Positions 4,850 through 57,130 of a stretch of DNA of 64,000 bases are shown here, piece after piece. Source of the DNA: Owenia fusiformis. Its lineage: Eukaryota; Annelida; Polychaeta; Sabellida; Oweniidae. The notes under the pieces are model-generated. The model saw only the letters and a program-made list of their open reading frames with translations. It was not told where the DNA came from and searched no databases. Each line of letters opens with the position of its first letter. Position 1 is the stretch's first letter. Location of the stretch: contig CAIIXF020000004.1 in NCBI GenBank assembly GCA_903813345.2, positions 12,110,196 to 12,174,195 on the forward strand, given 5' to 3'. A program made the translations under genes and the position numbers.

Positions 4850-6590
4850 AACATTTACTTCACGTCACAAATTAAACGAATTTGTTGAGACCACAACGTC
4901 TTTGTCACGTTCCTTTTCATATACACGTTTAAAACCCGTTTCGTCAACGTCAAAATTAACCGTTTCGACAACGTTGCAAATAAACCAATTTCGTGAGGAC
5001 ACAGCGTCGTTTTGTCACGTTTCCTGCACTTACAAATATTTTTTTTACATTTCAATTGAAAACACGTTTCGACAACGTTGAAATTAACCGTTTGCACTAC
5101 GTTGAAAATGAACCATTTTGGTCAGAAAATGACGTCTTTGTAACGTGTTTTACAATTACAAATATTTTTCACATTCAAACCATGTTTTGACAACGTTACA
5201 ATTAGCCATTTTCACTACGTTGCAAATGAACCAATTTGGTGGGAAAACAAGGACTTTGTAACGTTTCCTAGACTTACAATTATCTTTCACATTTAAAACA
5301 CGTTACGACAACGTCAAATTTTACTGTTTATATTACGTAGCAAATGAAACAATTCGGTGAGAAATGCAACGTCTTTGTAACGTTTTCTACACTTACAAAT
5401 ATCTTTCACATTTAAAACACGTTACGACAACGTCAAATTTTACCGTGTACATTACGTAGCAAATGTACCAAATTTGGTGAGAACACAACGTCTTTGTAAC
5501 GTTTTTTACACTTACAAATATCTTTCACATTTAGAACACGTTACGACAATATCAAATTTTACCGTTTATATAACGTAGCAAATGAAACAATTTGGTGAGA
5601 AGTGCAACGTCTTTGTAACGTTTTCTACACTTACAAATATCTTTCACATTTAAAACACGTTACGACAAAGTCAAATTTTACCGTTTACATTACGTAGCAA
5701 ATGTACCAAATTTGGTGAGAACACAACGTCTTTGTAACGTTTTTTACACTTACAAATATCTTTCACATTTAGAACACGTAACGACAACATCAAATTTTAC
5801 CGTTTATATTACGTAGCAAATGAAACAATTTGGTGAGAAGTGCAACGTCTTTGTAACGTTTTCTACACTTACAAATATCTTTCACATTTAAAACACGTTA
5901 CGACAACGTCAAATTTTACCGTTTACATTACGTAGCAAATGTACCAAATTTGGTGAGAACACAACGTCTTTGTAACGTTTTCTACACTTACAAATATCTT
6001 TCACATTTAAAACACGTTACGACAACGTCAAATTTTACCGTTTATATTACGTAGCAAATGAAACAATTTGGTGAGAACTGCAACGTCTTTGTTATGTTTC
6101 CTGCACTTATAAATATCTTTCACATTTAAAACACGTTACGACAACGTCAAATTTTACCGTTTATATTATGTAGCAAATGAAACAATTTGGTGTGAAGTGC
6201 AACGTCTTTGTAACGTTTTCTACACTTACAAATATCTTTCACATTTAAAACACGTTACGACAACGTCAAATTTTACCGTTTACATTACGTAGCAAATGTA
6301 CCAAATTAGGTGAGAACACAACGTCTTTGTAACGTTTTCTACACTTACAAATATCTTTCACATTTAAAACACGTTACGACAACGTTAAATTTTACCGTTT
6401 ATATTACGTTGCAAATGAACCAAACTGGTAAAAATTCAACGTCATTGTTACGTTTTTCACACCAGCACAAATTTCGAACTTTACGAACACATTACTACAA
6501 CGTCATTTTTTAACCATCCACCGACGTTTTGCTGAATGTCACAATTTTACGTTGCTTTGACGTTTATATAACGGAAATATACAACGTCTT
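4850..6590 (+). repeat. 119-bp tandem array at the 5' end of a LINE
   Basis: The block CTTACAAATATCTTTCACA recurs every 119 bp (near 5397, 5516, 5635, 5754, 5873, 5992, 6111, 6230 and 6349). Degenerate copies extend back to about 4850, giving about 14 units. Two subtypes alternate: one with AAATGAAACAATTTGGTGAG, one with AAATGTACCAAATTTGGTGA. This makes a 238-bp dimer, with one A-A step near 6055-6174. Units are rich in AACGT/ACGTC. The last degenerate unit ends about 10-20 bp before the ORF1 start at 6612. This invites comparison with the monomer arrays that act as promoters in mouse L1; the promoter role is inference. Confidence 0.9.
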
Positions 6591-7283: not shown

Positions 7284-8788
7284 GTTAAGACTAGCACAAT
7301 GGAATTGCCGAGGTTTCAATGTATCTACTCTATATATTAAACATTTATTGTCACAATGCGATATCTTGGCTCTCTCAGAGCACAAACTCTATCCCTGAAA
7401 CAGATTCAAGCTTGACTCCGTGCACTCGGACTTTCGGTGTTACAGCACAAGTAGCAAGAATCTAAACGATTTTAACTGTGGTAAAATATGGGGAAATGGT
7501 GGTGTTGCTATTTTCTGGCGTGATTCGTTGAGCAATTATGTTATTCCTGTTAAAAATATGTCAACAGACAGGATCGTTTGTCTAAAGGTATCAATAGTGC
7601 AAACTGCGCCTATTTACATATTTTCTGTTTACTTACCTCAACAAAATTGTGAAATTGACATTTACGACGATGTTTTATTCTCACTCGAACACTTTGTGCA
7701 AAAGGCTAGCACAGATGGCAGTGTTATAATTCTTGGCGATGTAAACAGTAATTTGGGTACGCTTACGGGTTGTAAGGGCCATGGTAATCCCTCATCTAAT
7801 GGTATCAAATTGTATGATTTTATGCAACGGAATCTTTTAACTGCAATCGATATGACAGATTTAGCATGTGGTCCAAGACACACATTTGAAATGACTCGAA
7901 ACAATGCTCTTCATGTTAGCTATATTGATCATGTCATTTTGTCTTACACTTTACGTGAATGTGTTTTATCGTGTACAGTCCTGGAAGATGAGCCTGACAA
8001 CACGTCAGATCATCTTCCAATTCAAACTATATTAAATTTAAATGCTCAAATAGAACGTTGCCCAGATATTGAAGCCCCAAAAGGATTTGCTTGGAACAAA
8101 CTCAACTGTAATGAAATAAAGGACTCGTACACTAATTCGGTTACATTGAAATGTAACGATATTTTACTTGAACTGCGTTCTATCTTGTCCAGTCGGACAC
8201 TAAACCCAGCAGAAATTGATCATTTCATCAATAGAATAGTAGAGAGTTTAATTTTATCATCAAATGCTCATATACCAAAGAGGAAATTCCTGAAATATGT
8301 TAAGCCCTTTTGGAACTCCACTTTGACGTCATTGGCTAAAGATAAAAAGGCAAAGTGGCATAAATGGGTGTCTCAGGGTAGATCACGTGACCCTTCAAAT
8401 GATGTTAGAAAACAATATAAAGAGTCAAAGAAAATATTTTCAAAAACCTATCAAGCTGCACAACTTGAGTATGAAAGAGAGGAATTAGAAAAATTGTATA
8501 CATCAGAACAGTCAGATCAACGTTTTTACTGGTATCTGGTCAATAAACATAGAAGATCATCAAAGAAATCTGTTAATCCAGTGCTTGCCGATGACGGCCA
8601 TTTAATTACAGATGCTAATGAAATCAGAGAACAGTGGAAGTGCCATTTCGAAAAACTAGCAATTTCAATCATTTATAATATTATACTTCAGTCAGTCTAC
8701 ATTCCATGTAACTTCTGTATCGGCACAATGATCCCTATTGTTAAAAACGGCAAAGATCCACTTGTAAAAGACAACTCAAGAGGTATTA
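7284..8788 (+). pseudogene. LINE ORF2, endonuclease and start of reverse transcriptase
   Basis: The frame reads through an apurinic-type endonuclease (EEP fold): QWNCRG at the start, LSEHKL (catalytic Glu), GGVAIFWR, YLPQ, ILGDVNS (catalytic Asp/Asn), YIDHVILS and the terminal SDHLPI. A linker with the usual basic helices follows (FWNSTLTSLAKDKKAKW), then the first reverse-transcriptase motif GTMIPIVKNGKDP and DNSRGI. A TGA stop at 7396-7398 interrupts the N-terminus. About 50-60 residues normally found between HFEKL and the IPIVK motif are missing near 8660. The frame ends where a TIR element enters at 8789 and resumes at 16169 in the same phase. Non-LTR retrotransposon identity is secure; the clade is not. 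Confidence 0.9.
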
Positions 8789-10053
8789 GCAAGGCCCCTA
8801 GTTTCAATTGTCTACGTTGTTTGGCATTAAAATGAGGTATTCTTCCGCGGAGAGAAAATAGATCGTTGATTGGATTTCTGTAAAAGTGACAGCCTGTTTC
8901 AAACTAAGTTTAAGGATATTAGGAAATTTTTTAAATGTATATTAATGCAATATTATGTGAGAGTGTAGTCTCATGCGTCGGTCTGATGTACTTTTGAACG
9001 AATATCTTATTCATGGGAGTTTCTGTGACGTATTTCCATATGGACCCAATACGATATATTTTTTAACCAAAATAACGCTCGAATCGCAAATTTTGCTGGG
9101 CCGTTTGATGATAACGTTTGTTATATTTTATCATATTCAGATATGTGATAGCCCTAATGACGCCGGTTCTTTTCCACCATGTGGCCTAATCAAAATCACA
9201 ATATGAGTTGGCAAGATCTGACTTTGAAATTGGGGTTCGCAATTCATACAATTTCATTTTTTATTTTGACATGAGTAGAAATAAAGGTTTTAAACTCTAC
9301 CAGAAACTAACAGAAAGTCTAGGAAAGCAATTTATTTTAAAAACATACATTCAAATGCATCTTTGCTGAAATTTCTAATGTTAGGTATTAAAGCTACTCA
9401 CTTTTATCTATGTTTCACTGCAGACGATGATTATTTGCCCTGTAGAAAAACTAAATAATTTTTGAGCCAAAAATAAGTCTGGGCCGTTTTATGATAACGA
9501 TAATTTCATTTTCTCAAATAAGTGTTTTTTTATAGTGCTGATTCCAAATGTTATTGCTGTCTCAATAATTAATTGAAAGACGCAAGAAAAATTGGGGAAT
9601 TTCAATCATGAAGATAGGTGTAAAATGACAGGTCCCCAATCAATTATATACGGCGCCATCTTTATCTGCACAGTTCAAGGTCACTGAAATATTGCTGAAA
9701 CGTACAGTCTTTTCTGTGATATTATGCGATAATATGGCTCAATTAGGTTAAGTTATGATCTTTCCTTGTTAGGAGGTGTCATACATTTATATAAGATGTC
9801 AACTAATTATCACGAAAAGGTATGTATAATTTCATTCTTACATTACGATAATTTTTTTTCAGTTCAAGAATTTGATTTTGGATTTTGTGAATTTGATCCT
9901 GATTTTTCTAAATGAGGTCTAACCGTTTTGCAGGTCCTTATCATATCGTACGCATTAGAATTTCAGAAGTAAGGCACTGTTCATGTATCTCCAACTAGAA
10001 ATGAAAGACTCGACTAGACTTCAATATGATGAAGGGAAGTCAGTCTTGGTTTA

Positions 10054-16000: not shown

Positions 16001-16110
16001 TATGATCATACATTTTGCGCGTTACAACCAATTCAATTTTCGAAATGAGAGATCTCAGAAATTTCTGACGAAGAAAATTTTTGTTGAACGTCAGCGGATT
16101 AATATATCGT
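13056..16110. other. Gene-free interior of the 7.4-kb element
   Basis: No coding frame, RNA gene or clear repeat was recognised. The right terminal inverted repeat begins near 16110 and contains TGACGTCA, a CRE-type octamer. Confidence 0.5.
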
Positions 16111-16168
16111 GACGTCACGGATTTTAATGCTAACAATGGACTTGAGGGGCCTTGCTGCCCGGCTGTTA

Positions 16169-17907
16169 CGCTCATGACAATGCTTCGTAAATTATTTGAC
16201 AACATTATTTTAACTCATGTAAAAGCACCCGTTCTAAATGCTATCCCTAAATTACAAGGGGCAGCTGTCGAGAAATGTTCATCAATCCATACATCATTAC
16301 TTGTACAAGAAACTATTTCTGAAAATGTAGCACAAGGTAAAATGGTAGTTTTAACAGTAACAGACATCCGAAAAGCTTTCGAATCTGTATGGATAGATGG
16401 CCTACTTTTTAAACTTCACAACTGTGGTATTGGCGGTAAGATATGGAAAATTTGGTATATGCTATATAAGCGGTATAGTTGCTCGGTTTTAGTAGGAGGA
16501 AAATGCTCTGACTTATTTCCAATATTACAGGGTGTCCATCAAGGCGGTGTCCTGTCCATGCTATTTTACCAACTTTATATGGCAGATATAGCTGACTCCA
16601 TGATTAAGCTAAACAAGGGATCAACCATAGGTTCGTTAAGTTGCGTTAGCCCTTCATATGCTGATGACATGTGCATCTTGTCGAATTCTTTTGAAAACAT
16701 GCAAGTGCTACTTGATCTACTTCATGCTCATAGTAATCAGTGGAGATATGAAGTTCATCCCGATAAGTGTTCGTTTCTCGTCTTTAATAGTAAAATCGAG
16801 CTAGGTGCAACTCAAAAACTTAATATCGGAGGTAAATCAATTGCAAAATCTGACAATGTGAAGCATGTCGGAATCCCAATTTCAACAAATAATGTTATTT
16901 CTGATTATGTACAGGATAAATGTAAGAAGGGCAAATCGCAGTACAATGCTCTGCTCGGTATAGGTAGTGGCTGCGGAGGCCTAATTCCAACATATGCATG
17001 TCAAATATACAAAACATATTCCATACCTACAATGACATACGGTGCCCATATTATCAACTATCAACAGAATGATATAGTTGTTCTAGAAAAGACACAACGA
17101 GAAATAGGACGGAGAATTCAATCTCTGCCTCACTCAGCTAGTATTCCCATCTCAACTTTGCCCCTGGGCCTAATGGACGTTGAATTTTATATTGACTTTT
17201 TAAGAATGATGTTTCTCTGGAGTTTATTGCAACTCCCGAGCGCAAATATATATAAATGTCTTTTCACAATGAGATTTGTAAAAATGCTGCATGTTAACAA
17301 TGAATGTAATACCTTCTCTCCAATAAAATGCATGTTACTGACATCAAAAAGGTATGATTTACATAACCATGTTCTAAATATGGTAGACTGTAAAATGTTC
17401 ATCCCCAAAAATAGGTGGAAGAATATTGTGTATAGAAAAATTGCAGCCGTTCAGATGCAAAGGACATTTTTCCAATCGCTAATGTACAAGGGCCTAAACT
17501 ATTTTAGAATGGGTAACCTTGAAATTCTGAGGCCATTTATATGGTGGAGAGTCGCAAAACTGTTCCCTTTTGCTTTAAGTAGTTGTAAAATAATGGTGAA
17601 ACTGCTAGCAGATGAACATGCTCTTAGATCAAAATATAGAGGTTCCGAAGATAAATCAGTTATATGCTCAATGTGCAGCACTTATGAAAAAGAAGACGTA
17701 GAGCATTTCTTACTTAAATGCCCAGCAAATATATATATTATTTATAGAGAACAACTTAGTAATCATTGCTGCGAATGGGGTATCCAAATGAACACTAAAA
17801 ACATTCTTGGCATAGGAATTGAAGAGTTGCACTTTACAAACGAACAGCTACTTGTATTTTTAAAAGATATGGCACATATAGTTATGCAACAATATTTGTG
17901 TCGTTAA
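16169..17907 (+). pseudogene. LINE ORF2, reverse transcriptase core and C-terminus
   Basis: The reverse-transcriptase domain continues directly after the right TTA. Motif A reads VTDIRKAFESVW, motif B GVHQGGVLSMLFYQLYM, and the catalytic motif C is PSYADDMCIL. After the thumb region there is a C-terminal CCHC-like knuckle, CSMCSTYEKEDVEHFLLKCP, typical of LINE ORF2 ends. About 580 codons are open without a stop. The absence of decay after 16169, with only one stop in the upstream half, suggests the LINE was fairly young when interrupted. It cannot be expressed as one protein because of the 7.4-kb insertion. Confidence 0.93.
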
Positions 17908-18779
17908 CGGTACTTGACAAGTTTACAAACTTAATGTAACTTTATCAGTGTGAAAGGGTGGCCCTCAAGGGAGGAACATGGGCCGACCAGGGATTTTCCC
18001 TTAATTAACGGTAATATGCAATATGTATTTATTCTGAGTGTACCGACCTTGGGGAAGGTACAATAATAAGCAATGCTTTATGGGGTTTTTCTATTTTTCT
18101 GTTTTTTTTTTCCTTGATTGGTAGTTGCAACGTCAACGCGGCAGCCTGACGTATTTGTAACAAACGATTATATCTCTTAAGCAGCCTATACATTTTAGTT
18201 TTACTCGCATATTTGTATTTATATTTATGTACATTTACTATACACTAGTTTAGAATTGCACCATAGGGCAACACCACCTTTCTTCAATTTACAAAAATTG
18301 TATATTTCTTTTACTAGCTTACAAGATATTGAAAGCATCTCATACTTTCATACAGTACTGCAGTACCGACCTTGGGGAAGGTACGATGATACGCTATGTC
18401 TTCCTTTTAATTTTTATAGAAAACGCAGATCCATAATGTCATTTTTTATTAATCTTAAGAGTGTTAGGTAACAGGTCTATCTAGGCCTACGGCGTGCGTC
18501 TACGCGGTAGCTAGGCGTCGTCGTCAGTACAAAAAGCAACAACAAAACAATGAATGTCTGTAAAATATAGTCATTTTTTAAAATTGCGTTACAATTAGGT
18601 GCTAGGCCAATCTTGGTCGGCGGCGTGCGTCTACGCGGTAGCTAGGCGTCGTCGTCAGTCAAAACAACAGCAATATTGTTTGTTTGTAAATAGTGATTAT
18701 ATTCAATTTAACATTTACATAATTTGTATACATGTATCTCCTTTATATAAAGGGCAATAAATATATACATACATACATT
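17908..18779 (+). other. LINE 3' untranslated tail with internal duplications
   Basis: TACCGACCTTGGGGAAGGTA occurs at 18041 and again at 18364; each copy can form an ACCTT-GGGG-AAGGT hairpin. A 38-bp GC-rich block starting GGCGTGCGTCTACGCGGTAG occurs at 18491 and 18622. The tail ends with CCTTTATATAAAGGG (hairpin), AATAAA and a short (ATAC)n run, a usual 3' end for CR1/L2-like LINEs. Confidence 0.7.
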
Positions 18780-18828
18780 ACAGATGGGTACAGCTAACAG
18801 CACGTTGCTCCATCTAAGTTCTCTCTCT

Positions 18829-19290: not shown

Positions 19291-19791
19291 GCTTATATAT
19301 TGACATATCTCAAGGATTCGAGAATGGACCGACACAATGAATTAGACCCTGGATCCCTAAGTACACAGACATTTCAACGAGGACAATTTGATATGTCTAA
19401 AAATTAGGTTTTCAGTCAGAGGGTGCGATTGTGGCATAAACAAGCCCAAAAATTAAGAATTATCTTGAATTTTACAAAAATTAATGCAACTTCCTTCACC
19501 CATTGCACCCCCCCCCCCCGGCTACGCCTATGCCCTTGTGACCCCATCGTCACTACAACAAGTGTGATAAGCTGTAAAGTCAAGTAGAGGGGGGGGGTCA
19601 CAGAGGCTTGGAGATTCATTGCATATTTTGAACACTACACCGTTGCTTGTTATACATAAACAGTTGATTGAACACCTCACTGTAATAAAAGTAAATGAGA
19701 TAGAAGCCAATGCTGCAACGCATATACACTGTGTATGTATAGCGTTGCTTATGTTGATTGCGTCATATTGTATGGTTTGATGACGCAGTAA

Positions 19792-36982: not shown

Positions 36983-38904
36983 ATGGCGACAGGAAGAGAC
37001 AATGGGGATGAATATCACGAGCAGTTGAAATGTGGGATTTGTTTGGACATTGTCAAGACACCAAAGTCCTTACAGTGTACCCATACATTTTGTTTCACGT
37101 GTTTAGATGGATGGATTAAGGCCAATAGACGAAACAGGAATAGGAAATACCCTTGCCCGACTTGTAAAGATCCGCACGACATTCCACAAAATGGAGCGAA
37201 TGCGTATAAGACTAATGTGATGGTCCAAGGCATCGTGGACATTGTGGATAGAAAGCGAAAACTAAATGAGGGAGATACCATCGAATGCGATATATGTATT
37301 CAGGATAACCTACATTCCCCTGCACTCGCACGCTGTATGGAATGTGCTGAGAATATGTGCCAAGCATGTAAAAGAGCACATGGGCTTTCAAGGGGCACCA
37401 AGTCGCATGAACTGTATAAGTTAACGGGAAACGCTGACGAGGATTCAAAAACAGCTTTGGCACACTTATCGAGTCGGAATATCAATTGTTCAGAGCATCC
37501 CGATCAACCGTTGTTATTTTTCTGTAAGGAAGATAAAATACCAGTATGTCGAGACTGCTGCATCACTGAACACTCAAAACATGAAAGTGTGAAAATAGAG
37601 ACAATATCAGAACCAGAAAAAGAGCGCATCGCTGCCTTGGTCGAGTTAATAAAGGAGAAGAAGTAGAAGTACGAAAGGGCTATACAATACTCAGCATATA
37701 TACGTCAAACCCCAAAACAGCAAATGCAAACAACTTTAAATGAGATCAATGTATCTAGAGAAGAACAACTCAAGAGAATAAATGATTATTTTGATTCACT
37801 TGAAAGTAAAGTAAGAGAAGGCAGTGAAGCAAATGATGAAAAGATACAAGCACATCAAAATGAATTATCATTACAGATAGGTACTGCCGACAGCACGTTG
37901 CTCCACCTAAGTACTCTCCAGAAGCATGGCCATCCTGTAGATATATTACGTGCTAGTGGCGACATCTCTCATAGGCTTCGAGAATGGTCCGACGCGAATG
38001 ACTTAAACCTTGGATCACTGAGTAAACAAACCTTTGAACAAGGACATCTTGATACGTCCAAACTTGGTCACATATTGTCAAGTAGTATTATGGTACAAGC
38101 GCCTACACCATGTCAGCCTAAAGTGCTAAACAAAAAACACATCCCTGAAGGAACCCCAGGAAACATTGCTATATCTGATGCTGTTGTAGGTGCTGATTTA
38201 GTAATCTTACATGATAGGATGGAAGCACAAGCACAACTCGCAACATATGATAATGACACTTTAACACTGAAGCACCATACTGCGGGAAATTTCAACAGAG
38301 TATGTGCCTTGCCAGGGAATCAATATGCTGCAACTGATGCCAAAACAAGTGCGTTGCAATATTCAATGATAATCTCGTTCACCAAAGGAATATAGGTCAG
38401 TTTGAGAGTCCATGTGGCATATGTTGTAATGCTTTGAACGAACTGATTGTGAGTGATGCGATTACTAAGAAAGTGTACCACATTGACATAAATGATGGTT
38501 CTGAACTGGAAGCAACACCATATGAACTGTTTGAAGCTCCTCAGTATGTCACAACAAACAGTAAGGGAGATGTCATTGTTTCAGATACGAAAACACACTC
38601 CATCACGGGAATCACTAGAAATGGTGACAGAGTGTTCAGCTATGGTCAACGTGGGTCGGATGATGGTCAGTTCACTTGTCCATGCGGTTTATGTACAGAT
38701 GCACTTGATAACATCATTGTGGCTGATTTCAATAATAACAGAGTTCATTTACTTGACTATAATGGAAAGTTTATCAGATATCTATTAACTGCAGAAGACG
38801 GATTGCAAGATCCGTGCGCTGTTGCCATAGACAGGCATGGTGACCTTGTTATAGGCACTGATACTGGAGATGTATGGTTTGTGAAGTACATGAACTATGA
38901 ATAG
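36983..38904 (+). pseudogene. TRIM-NHL (RING/B-box/coiled-coil/NHL) gene, broken by a stop and a frameshift
   Basis: The ATG follows a good acceptor (TTATTTACAG, AG at 36974-36975), with a matching GTAAGT donor at 36405, so a 5'UTR intron is likely. Residues 17-61 form a C3HC4 RING (C17, C20, C32, H34, C37, C40, C58, C61). B-box 1 follows at about 101-145 and B-box 2 at about 168-205, then a coiled coil and NHL-type repeats (ELIVSDAITKKVYHID, NIIVADFNNNRVHLLD). The protein ends GDVWFVKYMNYE, as this family usually ends. A TAG at 37664-37666 stops the frame in the coiled coil; the same frame then continues to 38393. A frameshift near 38365-38380 moves the NHL part to another frame. The intact product would be a RING E3 ligase of about 640 residues. 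Either a young pseudogene or assembly errors could explain this. Confidence 0.85.
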
Positions 38905-41900
38905 ACAGCAGTAAAGATCGGTAAGGGTGATCCTGGTATATAAAACATAATCCAATTAGAACTAATGCTAGAGATGTATGGTTTGTGAAGTACATGAACT
39001 TTGAATAGACAGCAATAAAGATTGGTAGGGGTGATCCTGGTATACAAAACATAATCCAATTAGAACTAATGCTAGAGATGTATGGTTTGTGAAGTACATG
39101 AACTTTGAATAGACAGCAATAAAGATTGGTAGGGTGATCCTGGTATACAAAACATAATCCAATTAGAACTAATGCTAGAGATGTATGGTTTGTGAAGTAC
39201 ATGAACTTTGAATAGACAGCAATAAAGATTGGTAGGGGTGATCCTGGTATACAAAACATAATCCAATTAGAACTAATGCTAGAGATGTATGGTTTGTGAA
39301 GTACATGAACTATGAATAGACAGCAATAAAGATTGGTAGGGGTGATCCTGGTATATAAAACATAATCCAATTAGAACTAATGCTAGAGATGTATGGTTTG
39401 TGAAGTACATGAACTATGAATAGACAGCAATAAAGATTGGTAGGGGTGATCCTGGTATACAAAACATATTATTAATCCAATTAGAACTGATGCTAGAGAT
39501 GTATGGTTTGTGAAGTACATGAACTATGAATAGACAGCAATAAAGATTGGTAGGGTGATCCTGGTATACAAAACATAATCCAATTAGAACTAATGCTAGA
39601 GATGTATGGTTTGTGAAGTACATGAACTTTGAATAGACAGCAGTAAAGATCGGTAGGGGTGATCCTGGTATATAAAACATAATCCAATTAGAACTGATGC
39701 TAGAGATGTATGGTTTGTGAAGTACATGACCTATGAATAGACAGCAATAAAGATTGGTAGGGGTGATCCTGGTATATAAAACATAATCCAATTAGAACTA
39801 ATGCTAGAGATGTATGGTTTGTGAAGTACATGAACTATGAATAGACAGCAATAAAGATTGGTAGGGGTGATCCTGGTATATAAAACATAATCCAATTAGA
39901 ACTAATGCTAGAGATGTATGGTTTGTGAAGTACATGAACTATGAATAGACAGCAATAAAGATTGGTAGGGGTGATCCTGGTATACAAAACATAATCCAAT
40001 TAGAACTAATGCTAGAGATGTATGGTTTGTGAAGTACATGAACTATGAATAGACAGCAATAAAGATTGGTAGGGGTGATCCTGGTATACAAAACATAATC
40101 CAATTAGAACTAATGCTAGAGATGTATGGTTTGTGAAGTACATGAACTATGAATAGACAGCAATAAAGATTGGTAGGGGTGATCCTGGTATACAAAACAT
40201 AATCCAATTAGAACTAATGCTAGAGATGTATGGTTTGTGAAGTACATGAACTATGAATAGACAGCAATAAAGATTGGTAGGGGTGATCCTGGTATACAAA
40301 ACATAATCCAATTAGAACTAATGCTAGAGATGTATGGTTTGTGAAGTACATGAACTTTGAATAGACAGCAATAAAGATTGGTAGGGGTGATCCTGGTATA
40401 CAAAACATAATCCAATTAGAACTAATGCTAGAGATGTATGGTTTGTGAAGTACATGAACTATGAATAGACAGCAATAAAGATTGGTAGGGGTGATCCTGG
40501 TATACAAAACATAATCCAATTAGAACTAATGCTAGAGATGTATGGTTTGTGAAGTACATGAACTATGAATAGACAGCAATAAAGATTGGTAGGGGTGATC
40601 CTGGTATACAAAACATAATCCAATTAGAACTAATGCTAGAGATGTATGGTTTGTGAAGTACATGAACTTTGAATAGACAGCAGTAAAGATCGGTAGGGGT
40701 GATCCTGGTATACAAAACATAATCCAATTAGAACTAATGCTAGAGATGTATGGTTTGTGAAGTACATGAACTATGAATAGACAGCAATAAAGATCGGTAG
40801 GGGTGATCCTGGTATACAAAACATAATCCAATTAGAACTAATGCTAGAGATGTATGGTTTGTGAAGTACATGAACTTTGAATAGACAGCAGTAAAGATCG
40901 GTAGGGGTGATCCTGGTATACAAAACATAATCCAATTAGAACTAATGCTAGAGATGTATGGTTTGTGAAGTACATGAACTTTGAATAGACAGCAGTAAAG
41001 ATCGGTAGGGGTGATCCTGGTATATAAAACATAATCCAATTAGAACTGATGCTAGAGATGTATGGTTTGTGAAGTACATGACCTATGAATAGACAGCAAT
41101 AAAGATTGGTAGGGGTGATCCTGGTATATAAAACATAATCCAATTAGAACTAATGCTAGAGATGTATGGTTTGTGAAGTACATGAACTATGAATAGACAG
41201 CAATAAAGATTGGTAGGGGTGATCCTGGTATACAAAACATAATCCAATTAGAACTAATGCTAGAGATGTATGGTTTGTGAAGTACATGAACTATGAATAG
41301 ACAGCAATAAAGATCGGTAGGGGTGATCCTGGTATATAAAACATAATCCAATTAGAACTAATGCTAGAGATGTATGGTTTGTGAAGTACATGAACTTTGA
41401 ATAGACAGCAATAAAGATTGGTAGGGGTGATCCTGGTATATAAAACATAATCCAATTAGAACTAATGCTAGAGATGTATGGTTTGTGAAGTACATGAACT
41501 TTGAATAGACAGCAATAAAGATTGGTAGGGGTGATCCTGGTATACAAAACATAATCCAATTAGAACTAATGCTAGAGATGTATGGTTTGTGAAGTACATG
41601 AACTATGAATAGACAGCAATAAAGATTGGTAGGGGTGATCCTGGTATATAAAACATAATCCAATTAGAACTAATGCTAGAGATGTATGGTTTGTGAAGTA
41701 CATGAACTATGAATAGACAGCAATAAAGATTGGTAGGGGTGATCCTGGTATATAAAACATAATCCAATTAGAACTAATGCTAGAGATGTATGGTTTGTGA
41801 AGTACATGAACTATGAATAGACAGCAATAAAGATCGGTAGGGGTGATCCTGGTATACAAAACATATTATTAATCCAATTAGAACTGATGCTAGAGATGTA

Positions 41901-43040
41901 TGGTTTGTGAAGTACATGAACTATGAATAGACAGCAATAAAGATTGGTAGGGGTGATCCTGGTATACAAAACATAATCCAATTAGAACTAATGCTAGAGA
42001 TGTATGGTTTGTGAAGTACATGACCTATGAATAGACAGCAATAAAGATTGGTAGGGGTGATCCTGGTATACAAAACATAATCCAATTAGAACTAATGCTA
42101 GAGATGTATGGTTTGTGAAGTACATGAACTTTGAATAGACAGCAATAAAGATTGGTAGGGGTGATCCTGGTATACAAAACATAATCCAATTAGAACTAAT
42201 GCTAGAGATGTATGGTTTGTGAAGTACATGACCTATGAATAGACAGCAATAAAGATTGGTAGGGGTGATCCTGGTATACAAAACATAATCCAATTAGAAC
42301 TAATGCTAGAGATGTATGGTTTGTGAAGTACATGAACTTTGAATAGACAGCAATAAAGATTGGTAGGGGTGATCCTGGTATACAAAACATAATCCAATTA
42401 GAACTAATGCTAGAGATGTATGGTTTGTGAAGTACATGAACTTTGAATAGACAGCAATAAAGATTGGTAGGGGTGATCCTGGTATATAAAACATAATCCA
42501 ATTAGAACTAATGCTAGAGATGTATGGTTTGTGAAGTACATGAACTTTGAATAGACAGCAATAAAGATTGGTAGGGGTGATCCTGGTATACAAAACATAA
42601 TCCAATTAGAACTAATGCTAGAGATGTATGGTTTGTGAAGTACATGAACTATGAATAGACAGCAATAAAGATTGGTAGGGGCGATCCTGGTATACAAAAC
42701 ATATTTTTAATCCAATTAGAACTGATGCTAGGGATGTATGGTTTGTGAAGTACATGAACTATGAATAGACAGCAATAAAGATTGGTAGGGGTGATCCTGG
42801 TATACAAAACATAATCCAATTAGAACTGATGCTAGAGATGTATGGTTTGTGAAGTACATGACCTATGAATAGACAGCAATAAAGATTGGTAGGGGTGATC
42901 CTGGTATACAAAATATAATCCAATTAGAACTGATGCTAGAGATGTATGGTTTGTGAAGTACATGGCCCATGGGCTATAAACAGATGTCAGTAAAGGTTTG
43001 ATAGAGGAATCCTATACCTTGGTATACGTTTTTCATTAGT
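38867..43040 (+). repeat. 39-copy, 104-bp satellite derived from the TRIM gene 3' end
   Basis: Unit 1 starts at 38867 inside the last TRIM codons (GAGATGTATGGTTTGTGAAG) and includes the stop codon and 3' flank. Unit 2 starts at 38971, and 39 full units run to 42939. A decayed last unit reaches about 43040. Most units carry AATAAA in CAGCAATAAAG; some have AGTAAA. Three units carry a 6-bp insertion (near 39465, 41862, 42702). The length is 104 bp, so long minus-strand frames through it are artefacts of periodicity. Confidence 0.97.
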
Positions 43041-43984
43041 CCATTGCTTTTGTCCGATCTGTGTCAAAATGGTCAAGAATAAGAGCAAATTGATATTGGG
43101 AAAATTAATGACAAATAGATGTCAGTATAGAGTTAGGTGGTAGATAGTTAGGTAGAAAATATCGTAGTAAAAACTAGTATTATATGTTCTTTTAGACAAT
43201 TCTCTGACAAAATGCTTCGGAGCAAATTAACAGTAGCATGGTATAGCCCATTTTTGACAAGAATCCTTGCAAAGGACTTGAGAAATACTAGTAACATATC
43301 TATTGTAGTAACAAATATATTTCAATATAAAAAAAACGAAAACAAATATAAAAGGTAAACGAACTGTAATCTGTAATTTGTTGCAGTTCTTTTCATATAT
43401 TGCTTAATGGGGATTATATGGTGGAGTTTTTTGTACAGATCTCAATACCAAAATAAGATTTCATAAGCTTTCCGATGAAATGCACTTTTTTATTTCTGCC
43501 AATAAAAACTTCAAATTAATATACATGTACAATGTTTAGACAAACATTCTCACCCTGGCGACATCATGATATATGATAGCTAGAGCTGAACTGACAGATT
43601 TTCAATTAAACATCTATTTCTCTCAGACATCTTGGAAAAGGAGGTGTTAACTAAACTATATTTTATAAGACATCTTGTGAATAGAAGAACTCACAAAAAA
43701 CTTTGTTAGCGCTCTTAGTCAAGCCACCTTAAAATGCTGTGTCAAGTGTAAATACATATGTAGGCCTGTTGTTTTATTCAATATAAGCCACAAAAACAGC
43801 ACATTTTTGCATTATCTGATATTACCCTTTCAGTGTTTATTTTCAGCAGCTTTCTTATTACATATATGTGTATTTCAAACAACTTGAGACAATAATAATA
43901 TTGATCCACTTTTATTTAAACCGCATTTGATTATTTATTGAAGACAGAAAATTTACATAACCCATGTATACCTGATTAAGAAAC

Positions 43985-55504: not shown

Positions 55505-57130
55505 ATTACATATGAAACTATAGCCATTTATATACAACATGTAATTTATATACAATATGTACAAAACCATAGACATTTATATACAATATATACAAAAAAT
55601 GTGTACAAAATGTCCCCACCAAGTGGTGATCCCGTGAAATGGTTATCCTGAAAATGAGTAGACAAGACTTTACCAACACAATTTGAGGACGGAAAATCCA
55701 AAGTGGCCACCTTAAAATTTACCCAGAATGCCAAACATTTAGTCAGTTCTAGATTTTCATACTAAGAACCACCCCTGAAAATTTGAAATTGATCCGTCAC
55801 ACAGTTAACCAGAAAACATGTAAACAAGACTTTACAGACAAGATTTCAGGATGGAAAATCCAAAATGGCTGCCTTGACATTTACCAAGAATGTCAAAAAA
55901 CTAATCTGTTTGTAGATTTTCATACTAAGAATCATCCCTGAAAATATGAAATTGATCTACCAAACGGTTCACCTGTAAACGGGTAGACAAGACTTTACAG
56001 GCAAGATTTTAAGACGGAAAATCCAAAATGGCTGCCTTGACATTTACCCAGAATGCAAAAAAACTAATCAGTTCTAGATTTTCATACAAAGAATCATCCC
56101 TGAAAATTTGAAATTGATCTACCAAACAGTTCACCTGAAAACGAGTAGACAAGACTTTACAGACAAGATTTTAGGACGGAAAATCCAAAATGGCTGCCTT
56201 GACATTTACCCAGAATGCCAAAAAACTAATGAGATCTAGATTTTTATACTAAGACTCATCCCTGAAAATTTGAAATTGATCCACCAAACGGTTCACCTGA
56301 AAACGCGCAGACAAGACTTCACAGACAAGATTTTAGGACCGAAAAATCCAAAATGGCAGACAATAAAAAAGTCCTTATGAGTTTTTGCTGATTTCTTTTT
56401 ACAAAATTATCACATATAACTACTGTTAACAATAAAGTAGGCTTTTACAGCAAAGTACATCTGAAATTATTTATAAAGCTACTATAGTTAAAGTATGAAA
56501 ACTCAAAAACACCATTCAATATGATACAAAGTATTATCGCACGCTAACTTTTCTTAAGACATTCAAAATGGCTGACATGACTGAGCTAGCAGGTCCAAAA
56601 CCTAATCAGATCTAGAATGAAGTGAGCTGAACAAGATGTTAAAGTTTTAAAAGCAACTGTGAAGCAGTTTTTCTTAAAGTTTGCAGACAAGGATTTTAGC
56701 ATTTGACTTCAAAATGGCCGACAAGAAGTAGGTTTCGAGTTAAATTTTTTTCATCCACATCTATAGGCACTCATAAGTTATTCCTGAAAATTAGAAGGTG
56801 ATACCTGTAGCGGTTTTGGAGAAAACTGCCGGACGTACGGACGGACAGACAGACAGACAACCAGACAGACGGACGGACGCGCCTAGGACGACAATATGGC
56901 CCCACACTATGTGGTGGGGACATAAAAACACTTCTATATATATACTTTATATATAAAACTATAGCTACTTGTGAACTTTTTGGAAAAAAACATAGACATA
57001 ACCATATCTATTTATATACAATATGTACACAACTATAGCCATTTATATTTTATATACAATATGTATATACCCATAGACATTTATATACAATATATACAAG
57101 ACCACAGACATTTCTACAATATGTACAATA
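55505..57130. repeat. AT-rich minisatellite split by a TIR element
   Basis: Units of ATTTATATACAATATGTACA plus AAACCATAGACA occur on both sides (55505-55610 and 56940-57130). The element at 55611-56922 appears to have inserted into this array. Confidence 0.65.
55611..56922. mobile_element. 1.3-kb TIR element with ~160-bp internal tandem repeats
   Basis: The ends TGTCCCCACCA and TGGTGGGGACA are inverted. About 4.5 internal units of roughly 160 bp carry GACAAGACTTTACAGACAAG and AAAATCCAAAATGGCTGCCT. The right end has a GGACGGACAGACAGACAGAC run. No transposase is seen. Confidence 0.7.

Follow-up and report, generated by a model that had tools for sequence, protein, structure and literature searches.

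A mirage-like minisatellite at the end of a broken TRIM-NHL gene in the annelid Owenia fusiformis, probably born in place

A 64,000-nucleotide stretch of the genome of the annelid Owenia fusiformis (contig CAIIXF020000004.1, positions 12,110,196 to 12,174,195; called the window below) holds a gene of the TRIM-NHL class whose 3' end runs directly into a long tandem array. Judging from the sequence, this array was most probably born locally, from the 3' end of the now broken gene, as a mirage-like minisatellite that grew by local tandem duplication and unequal exchange and is probably neutral. The array proper occupies positions 38867-42964 of the forward strand, on which the gene and its parts described below also lie; Tandem Repeats Finder gives it a period of 104 bp, 39.2 copies and 97% matches. 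Splitting it at GRGATGTATGGTTTGTG yields 40 starts, corresponding to 39 full units (u01 to u39) and a last, mostly diverged unit that begins at 42939. Thirty-four of the full units measure 104 bp, three 110 bp and two 103 bp, and 18 distinct variants occur among them. The longer type, with 6 additional bp, is found at 39386-39495, 41783-41892 and 42621-42730. The string GAGATGTATGG occurs 39 times in the window, always inside the array, for an expectation of 0.01.

Unit 1 (38867-38970) is continuous with the gene and contains its last codons, the TAG stop at 38902-38904 and the beginning of the 3' flank, as the original prediction had it. The gene-coding part common to the units, that is, the last codons (GDVWFVKYMNYE) and the TAG stop, spans positions 38855-38904 and is homologous to the ends of paralogous genes. 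In the 498-Mb genome that we searched (G000 in the coordinates below), the unit gave 40 matches, every one at the focal locus, so that birth in place from the 3' end of the gene is well supported. A genome search with the 3' flank matched only the flank itself. Within the window outside the array, a search for distant copies of the unit gave a best score of 31 and next scores of 28-29, apart from a segment reaching the gene end (73).

Could a pre-existing satellite or repeat family have landed at the 3' end of the gene and supplied its last codons? Tandem repeats are abundant in this genome, where those with a period of at least 20 cover 8.6% of 150 kb sampled. However, no second locus was found in 498 Mb, and many paralogs have C-termini homologous to the coding part of the unit: among 150 other matches, most alignments reach residues 152-156, inside the unit. 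This homology argues that the gene was the source of the unit. Such a landing is largely refuted by these comparisons and we hold it to be most improbable, and the origin in place that had been predicted is upheld. Nor does the array behave as a satellite DNA family, which has many copies in long arrays and occupies several loci or heterochromatin: a single 4.1-kb locus was found.

A 30-nt direct repeat with 90% identity, between positions 38857 and 38961, indicates that the homology between gene and unit starts 10 bp to the left of GAGATGTATGG. Along this left extension, the compared stretches read 'ACTGATACTG' and 'ACTGATGCTA', and the units closest to the ACTGATACTG of the gene are the G-variant units carrying ACTGATGCTA (u06, u08, u21, u29 and u37-u39). 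GAGATGTATGG therefore lies inside the copied segment and not at its junction, and we abandon the earlier idea that this string was the microhomology that started the duplication. The true junction, judged by eye, shares at most a few bases.

The far edge of the array bears on the order of events. The right-edge partial unit (42939-43041) is identical to the consensus over its first 26 bp, and its remainder is probably a diverged copy with a stop of its own; counting this unit moves the edge of the array from 42964 to about 43041. Past the shared 26 bp, it agrees with the consensus at 50 of 70 aligned positions, gaps aside. The local score of this copy against the consensus was equalled in 9 of 2000 shuffles, and its anchored score in 46 of 4997 genomic segments. 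By eye, it reads KYMAHGL followed by TAA; where unit 1 reads KYMNYE, the paralogs L012, L013 and L014 read KYMAYQ or KYMAYE, and other paralogs carry other tails. Two features of the full units can be set beside this, both of them picked after the units had been inspected: the edge units u01 and u37-u39 differ from the consensus by 4.25 on average, versus 1.66 elsewhere (549 of 20000 permutations were as high), and the ACTGAT variant, which is also that of the gene, is present in all of u37-u39 (chance 0.004). Finally, AGTAAA is found in unit 1 as well as in the right-edge copy, and 34 of the 39 full units have AATAAA; the latter may thus be derived.

The strong divergence of the right-edge copy suggests an old first duplication, followed by a later expansion and homogenisation of the inner units. 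We infer the following order. A segment that starts in the last codons of the TRIM-NHL gene and ends some 50 bp beyond the stop would have been duplicated in tandem, and both first copies would then have diverged. Unequal exchange or gene conversion would subsequently have expanded and homogenised the inner units to about 39, leaving the strongly diverged copy at the far edge. A duplication extending outward from the 3' end of an exon spares everything upstream, including the exon with its first stop or splice donor, and so could be tolerated without having any function. Unequal exchange is probably the engine, and the process was probably neutral. The array had been presented as the birth of a satellite caught in place; the local birth from the gene is supported, but a single recent event is not, given the 20 of 70 positions at which the right-edge copy differs.

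Several points weigh against this account. The homology of the right-edge copy past its first 26 bp is only moderately significant against the consensus, and the support drops when the comparison is made with unit 1 (67 of 2000 shuffles) or with a 110-bp unit (120 of 2000). Odd units also occur inside the array: u06 and u29, both of 110 bp, depart from the consensus by 7 and 8 columns, respectively, like the edge unit u37 (8). The genome search was heuristic, so that failing to find a match is, by the tool's own caution, no proof of absence. The array crosses a stop codon and 3' flank, with no exon-intron border, the feature that defines the amphioxus mirages discussed below. The length of the array, lastly, is based on one assembly, in which looping or collapse might have altered the copy number. 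However, 18 unit variants stand in irregular order, the longest repeated block of mixed variants comprises two units, and no more than four identical units follow one another, a pattern unlike that of a looped misassembly. We give an assembly artefact very little credence.

The gene itself (36983-38904) has all the parts of its class, namely a RING finger, B-boxes, a linker and NHL repeats, as seen from Pfam matches above cut-off (zf-C3HC4, zf-B_box and NHL) and from paralog alignment. Two open paralogs, L007 and L008 (642 and 645 amino acids as read), align along it in tblastn searches and reveal two lesions. An in-frame TAG stop at 37664-37666, between the B-boxes and the linker, is aligned over by the paralogs without a gap, and a frameshift lies approximately at 38339-38344, between the linker and the NHL part, where the paralog alignments quit one frame at about 38338 and restart in another at about 38344. 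On account of this stop and change of frame, the gene is most likely a young pseudogene, or else an allele or assembly carrying two lesions. We sought a close paralog or a single-copy version of the 3' flank in the genome and found neither; the nearest paralogs have 49-55% amino acid identity in the NHL part. Searched against the genome, the gene body hit its own locus, two partial sites close by on that chromosome and a weak one on a different chromosome. Short relics that match the middle part of the gene with 80-88% identity lie in the window at 18776-18825 and 19302-19401, and a further relic is found at G000:C4:12104591-12104787.

The repeated polyadenylation signals are a reason to consider a functional array, in which these signals, or the stop and flank, would tune the formation of the 3' end of the TRIM-NHL transcript. 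The statement that most units hold AATAAA holds good for 34 of the 39 full units. The remaining five (u01, u08, u18, u20 and u21) have AGTAAA, and they include the unit next to the gene, with AGTAAA at 38910, so that the first AATAAA downstream of the stop is that of unit 2 (39014-39019). An AATAAA is also common at this scale, being present in 190 of 1149 pieces of equal length taken from the window outside the array, and within the first 104 nt of flank in 14 of 80 paralogs. Its repetition here is one event, copied many times. With a gene that carries a stop and a frameshift and a first unit devoid of AATAAA, the proposal of dozens of alternative transcript ends is not supported, and we regard a role of the array in 3'-end formation as very unlikely.

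The closest known parallel is found in amphioxus. The term mirage denotes a minisatellite-like array in which an exon-intron boundary has been duplicated in tandem, with examples in the Adh3, globin, TnC and PGBD5 genes of amphioxus; the units range from 10 to about 160 bp, the authentic border is kept, and regular splicing is reported to proceed undisturbed (PMC3087553, PMC3902484). In the mirage of the globin BflGb6, the inner units evolve in concert and are homogenised, with the edges excluded (PMC3087553, PMC3902484). The focal array resembles mirages in that its units begin within the end of an exon and run into adjacent non-coding DNA: it starts inside the exon, and unit 1 keeps the stop of the gene. 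As to the pattern of homogenised inner units and excluded edges, the signs are mixed: the right-edge partial unit is strongly diverged and the edge group stands above the rest, yet u06 and u29 deviate about as much as u37. The array departs from mirages in spanning a stop codon and 3' flank, in its 39 copies and in its annelid host, and no GTRAGT donor is present in the consensus unit on either strand. We consider "mirage-like minisatellite at the 3' end of a gene" to be probably its best description.

Satellite birth is viewed as a tandem duplication followed by amplification through non-reciprocal exchange, for which any sequence may in theory serve as a seed (PMC5615363, PMC12692304), and the sources listed in the section of one review devoted to them are transposons, rDNA spacers and other tandem repeats (PMC12692304). 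The focal array fits the scheme of these reviews, that is, local tandem duplication and then amplification. It differs from the satellite families they treat in being found at one locus, hence minisatellite-like, and in having the end of a protein-coding gene as its source. Satellites also arise from tandem arrays in the 3' untranslated regions of plant long terminal repeat (LTR) retrotransposons (PMC12692304). The likeness here is a short seed array close to where a coding unit ends; the plant arrays are dispersed by the element, whereas the focal array belongs to a cellular gene and no dispersal of it was observed. The literature on gene-derived satellites yielded no case spanning a stop codon, in a search outside which most subscription journals lay.

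Are the ends of TRIM-NHL genes special sites for such growth? We took 80 paralog loci from the 150 other matches (C10:19602061 was omitted for overlap with the neighbourhood of L011) and searched the 450 nt after each stop for a repeat of the 150 nt before it, with a score of at least 50, a limit chosen after the scores were seen. Stop-crossing copies were present at four of the 80 paralogs (L027, L020, L009 and L025), or at five of 81 if the focal gene is included, which was given and is not a fair draw. Below the limit were L047 (score 34, a 17-nt copy), L026 (score 30) and L075 (score 16). Random points scored in 86 of 945 cases, 65 of the 86 coming from three loci (L032, L039 and L042); without those, the count is 21 of 756. 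At least one scoring point was found in 12 of 15 random loci, and points of the window outside the array scored in 29 of 391 cases. The paralog rate of 4/80 thus falls between 86/945 and 21/756, and no enrichment at TRIM-NHL stops is shown by this test. Arrays of at least about 0.9 kb occur in three of the 15 random loci, and in so repeat-rich a genome such growth seems to be allowed at a stop codon roughly as readily as elsewhere. At L027 (C6:30067200-30070172), the end of an otherwise open TRIM-NHL gene is repeated three times as a 118-bp unit at 2253-2605 on the minus strand, across the stop.

The same survey bears on a more active role, in which repeated gene ends would serve as silent cassettes and, by gene conversion, give TRIM-NHL genes new C-termini. 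The units do encode differing tails (KYMNYE, KYMNFE, KYMTYE and KYMAHGL, read by eye), and the flank copy of L020, 52-125 nt past the stop, is nearer to the tail of the paralog L028 (92%) than to that of its own gene (82%). However, the flank copy of L009 shows no clear preference between tails, the focal gene is broken, and copies at four of 80 paralog ends are not shown to exceed the random points. We find a cassette system scarcely believable on these grounds.

Arrays with the anatomy of amphioxus mirages were found at four other loci, L012, L014, L024 and L034, their exon structure being deduced from open frames and from acceptor-like and donor-like sequence, independently of transcripts. 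At L012 (G000:C5:1881900-1884884), the array at 1004-2056 consists of 88 bp repeated 12 times and copies the exon end of a C-type lectin (Lectin_C, narrowly above cut-off) together with GTAAGT, with 11 exact donor matches. At L014 (G000:C6:37399783-37402750), an array at 982-2648 (88 bp, 18.9 copies), antisense to the TRIM gene, copies an ankyrin-like exon end (Ank, 20.4 bits, narrowly under the cut-off of 21.1) and GTAAGT; it has 20 donors, the final one in a diverged edge copy. Both of these 88-bp arrays lie downstream of TRIM genes and copy the exon end and donor of another gene. L024 (C11:27828020-27831000) has 4.8 copies of 92 bp at 1717-2163, with a HECT-domain exon end, CAG|GTAGGT and four donors, and L034 (C4:21000001-21010000) has three copies of 47 bp at 2690-2830, with an exon end, GTGAGT, three donors and no Pfam match. 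The donors are thus GTAAGT or GTGAGT at L012, L014 and L034, and GTAGGT at L024.

These cases raise the possibility that exon 3' ends, with a donor or a stop, are preferred birthplaces of young tandem arrays, and that mirages are more widespread among animals and can give rise to arrays at gene ends too. A scan of 273,541 bases yielded seven young arrays, defined by at least 95% matches and no fewer than 2.8 copies (limits fixed after the list was seen). Setting aside the focal array and L027, which were looked for, four of the five (L012, L014, L024 and L034) coincide with an exon end and its donor, the exception being L030. Of these four, three adjoin TRIM genes; L034 and L030 are the only ones whose loci had been chosen irrespective of genes. 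Neither control shows the excess that a hot spot would predict, be it the stop-codon test above or a genome-wide word count, in which a donor word occurring three times at unit spacing gave 1420 matches versus 1503 for the reversed word, and a genome-wide excess of donor-containing arrays was accordingly rejected. These are counts of matches, dominated by large arrays, and the control word is partly of low complexity; among the matches listed for contig C1, we counted by eye about nine donor arrays (to 58.8 Mb) versus about 14 control arrays. Preferred birth at exon ends is doubtful. Two large arrays whose units carry GGTAAGT are located at G000:C1:2575189-2576699 and C1:58792816-58795266.

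Elsewhere in the window, further tandem arrays lie at 5050-6456 (119 bp, 12 copies), 24904-25848 (485 bp, 1.9 copies) and 55647-56357 (162 bp, 4.4 copies). Long open frames at 7420-8835 and 16081-17907 resemble parts of non-LTR retrotransposons, from translations judged by eye. No Rfam match reached its gathering score between 36500 and 44500. As for the host genome, the annelid erythrocruorin linker domain PF16915 gave three matches above cut-off in it and none in 14 control genomes; twelve contigs of chromosome size (C1-C12, 32-62 Mb) were seen, and 12 is the chromosome number of Owenia fusiformis (PMC9539403).

The focal array would thus represent a known kind of repeat growth, at the end of a gene instead of at an intron border. 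It allows the start of an array from a gene end to be read at one place, with the source, the first unit, the homogenised inner units and the diverged far edge. Whether exon ends are hot spots of such growth or merely sites where it is tolerated becomes a testable question. The mirage papers that we found concern amphioxus; taken together, the gene-end array and the splice-donor arrays suggest that mirages also exist outside cephalochordates, and Owenia apparently carries arrays of this type.

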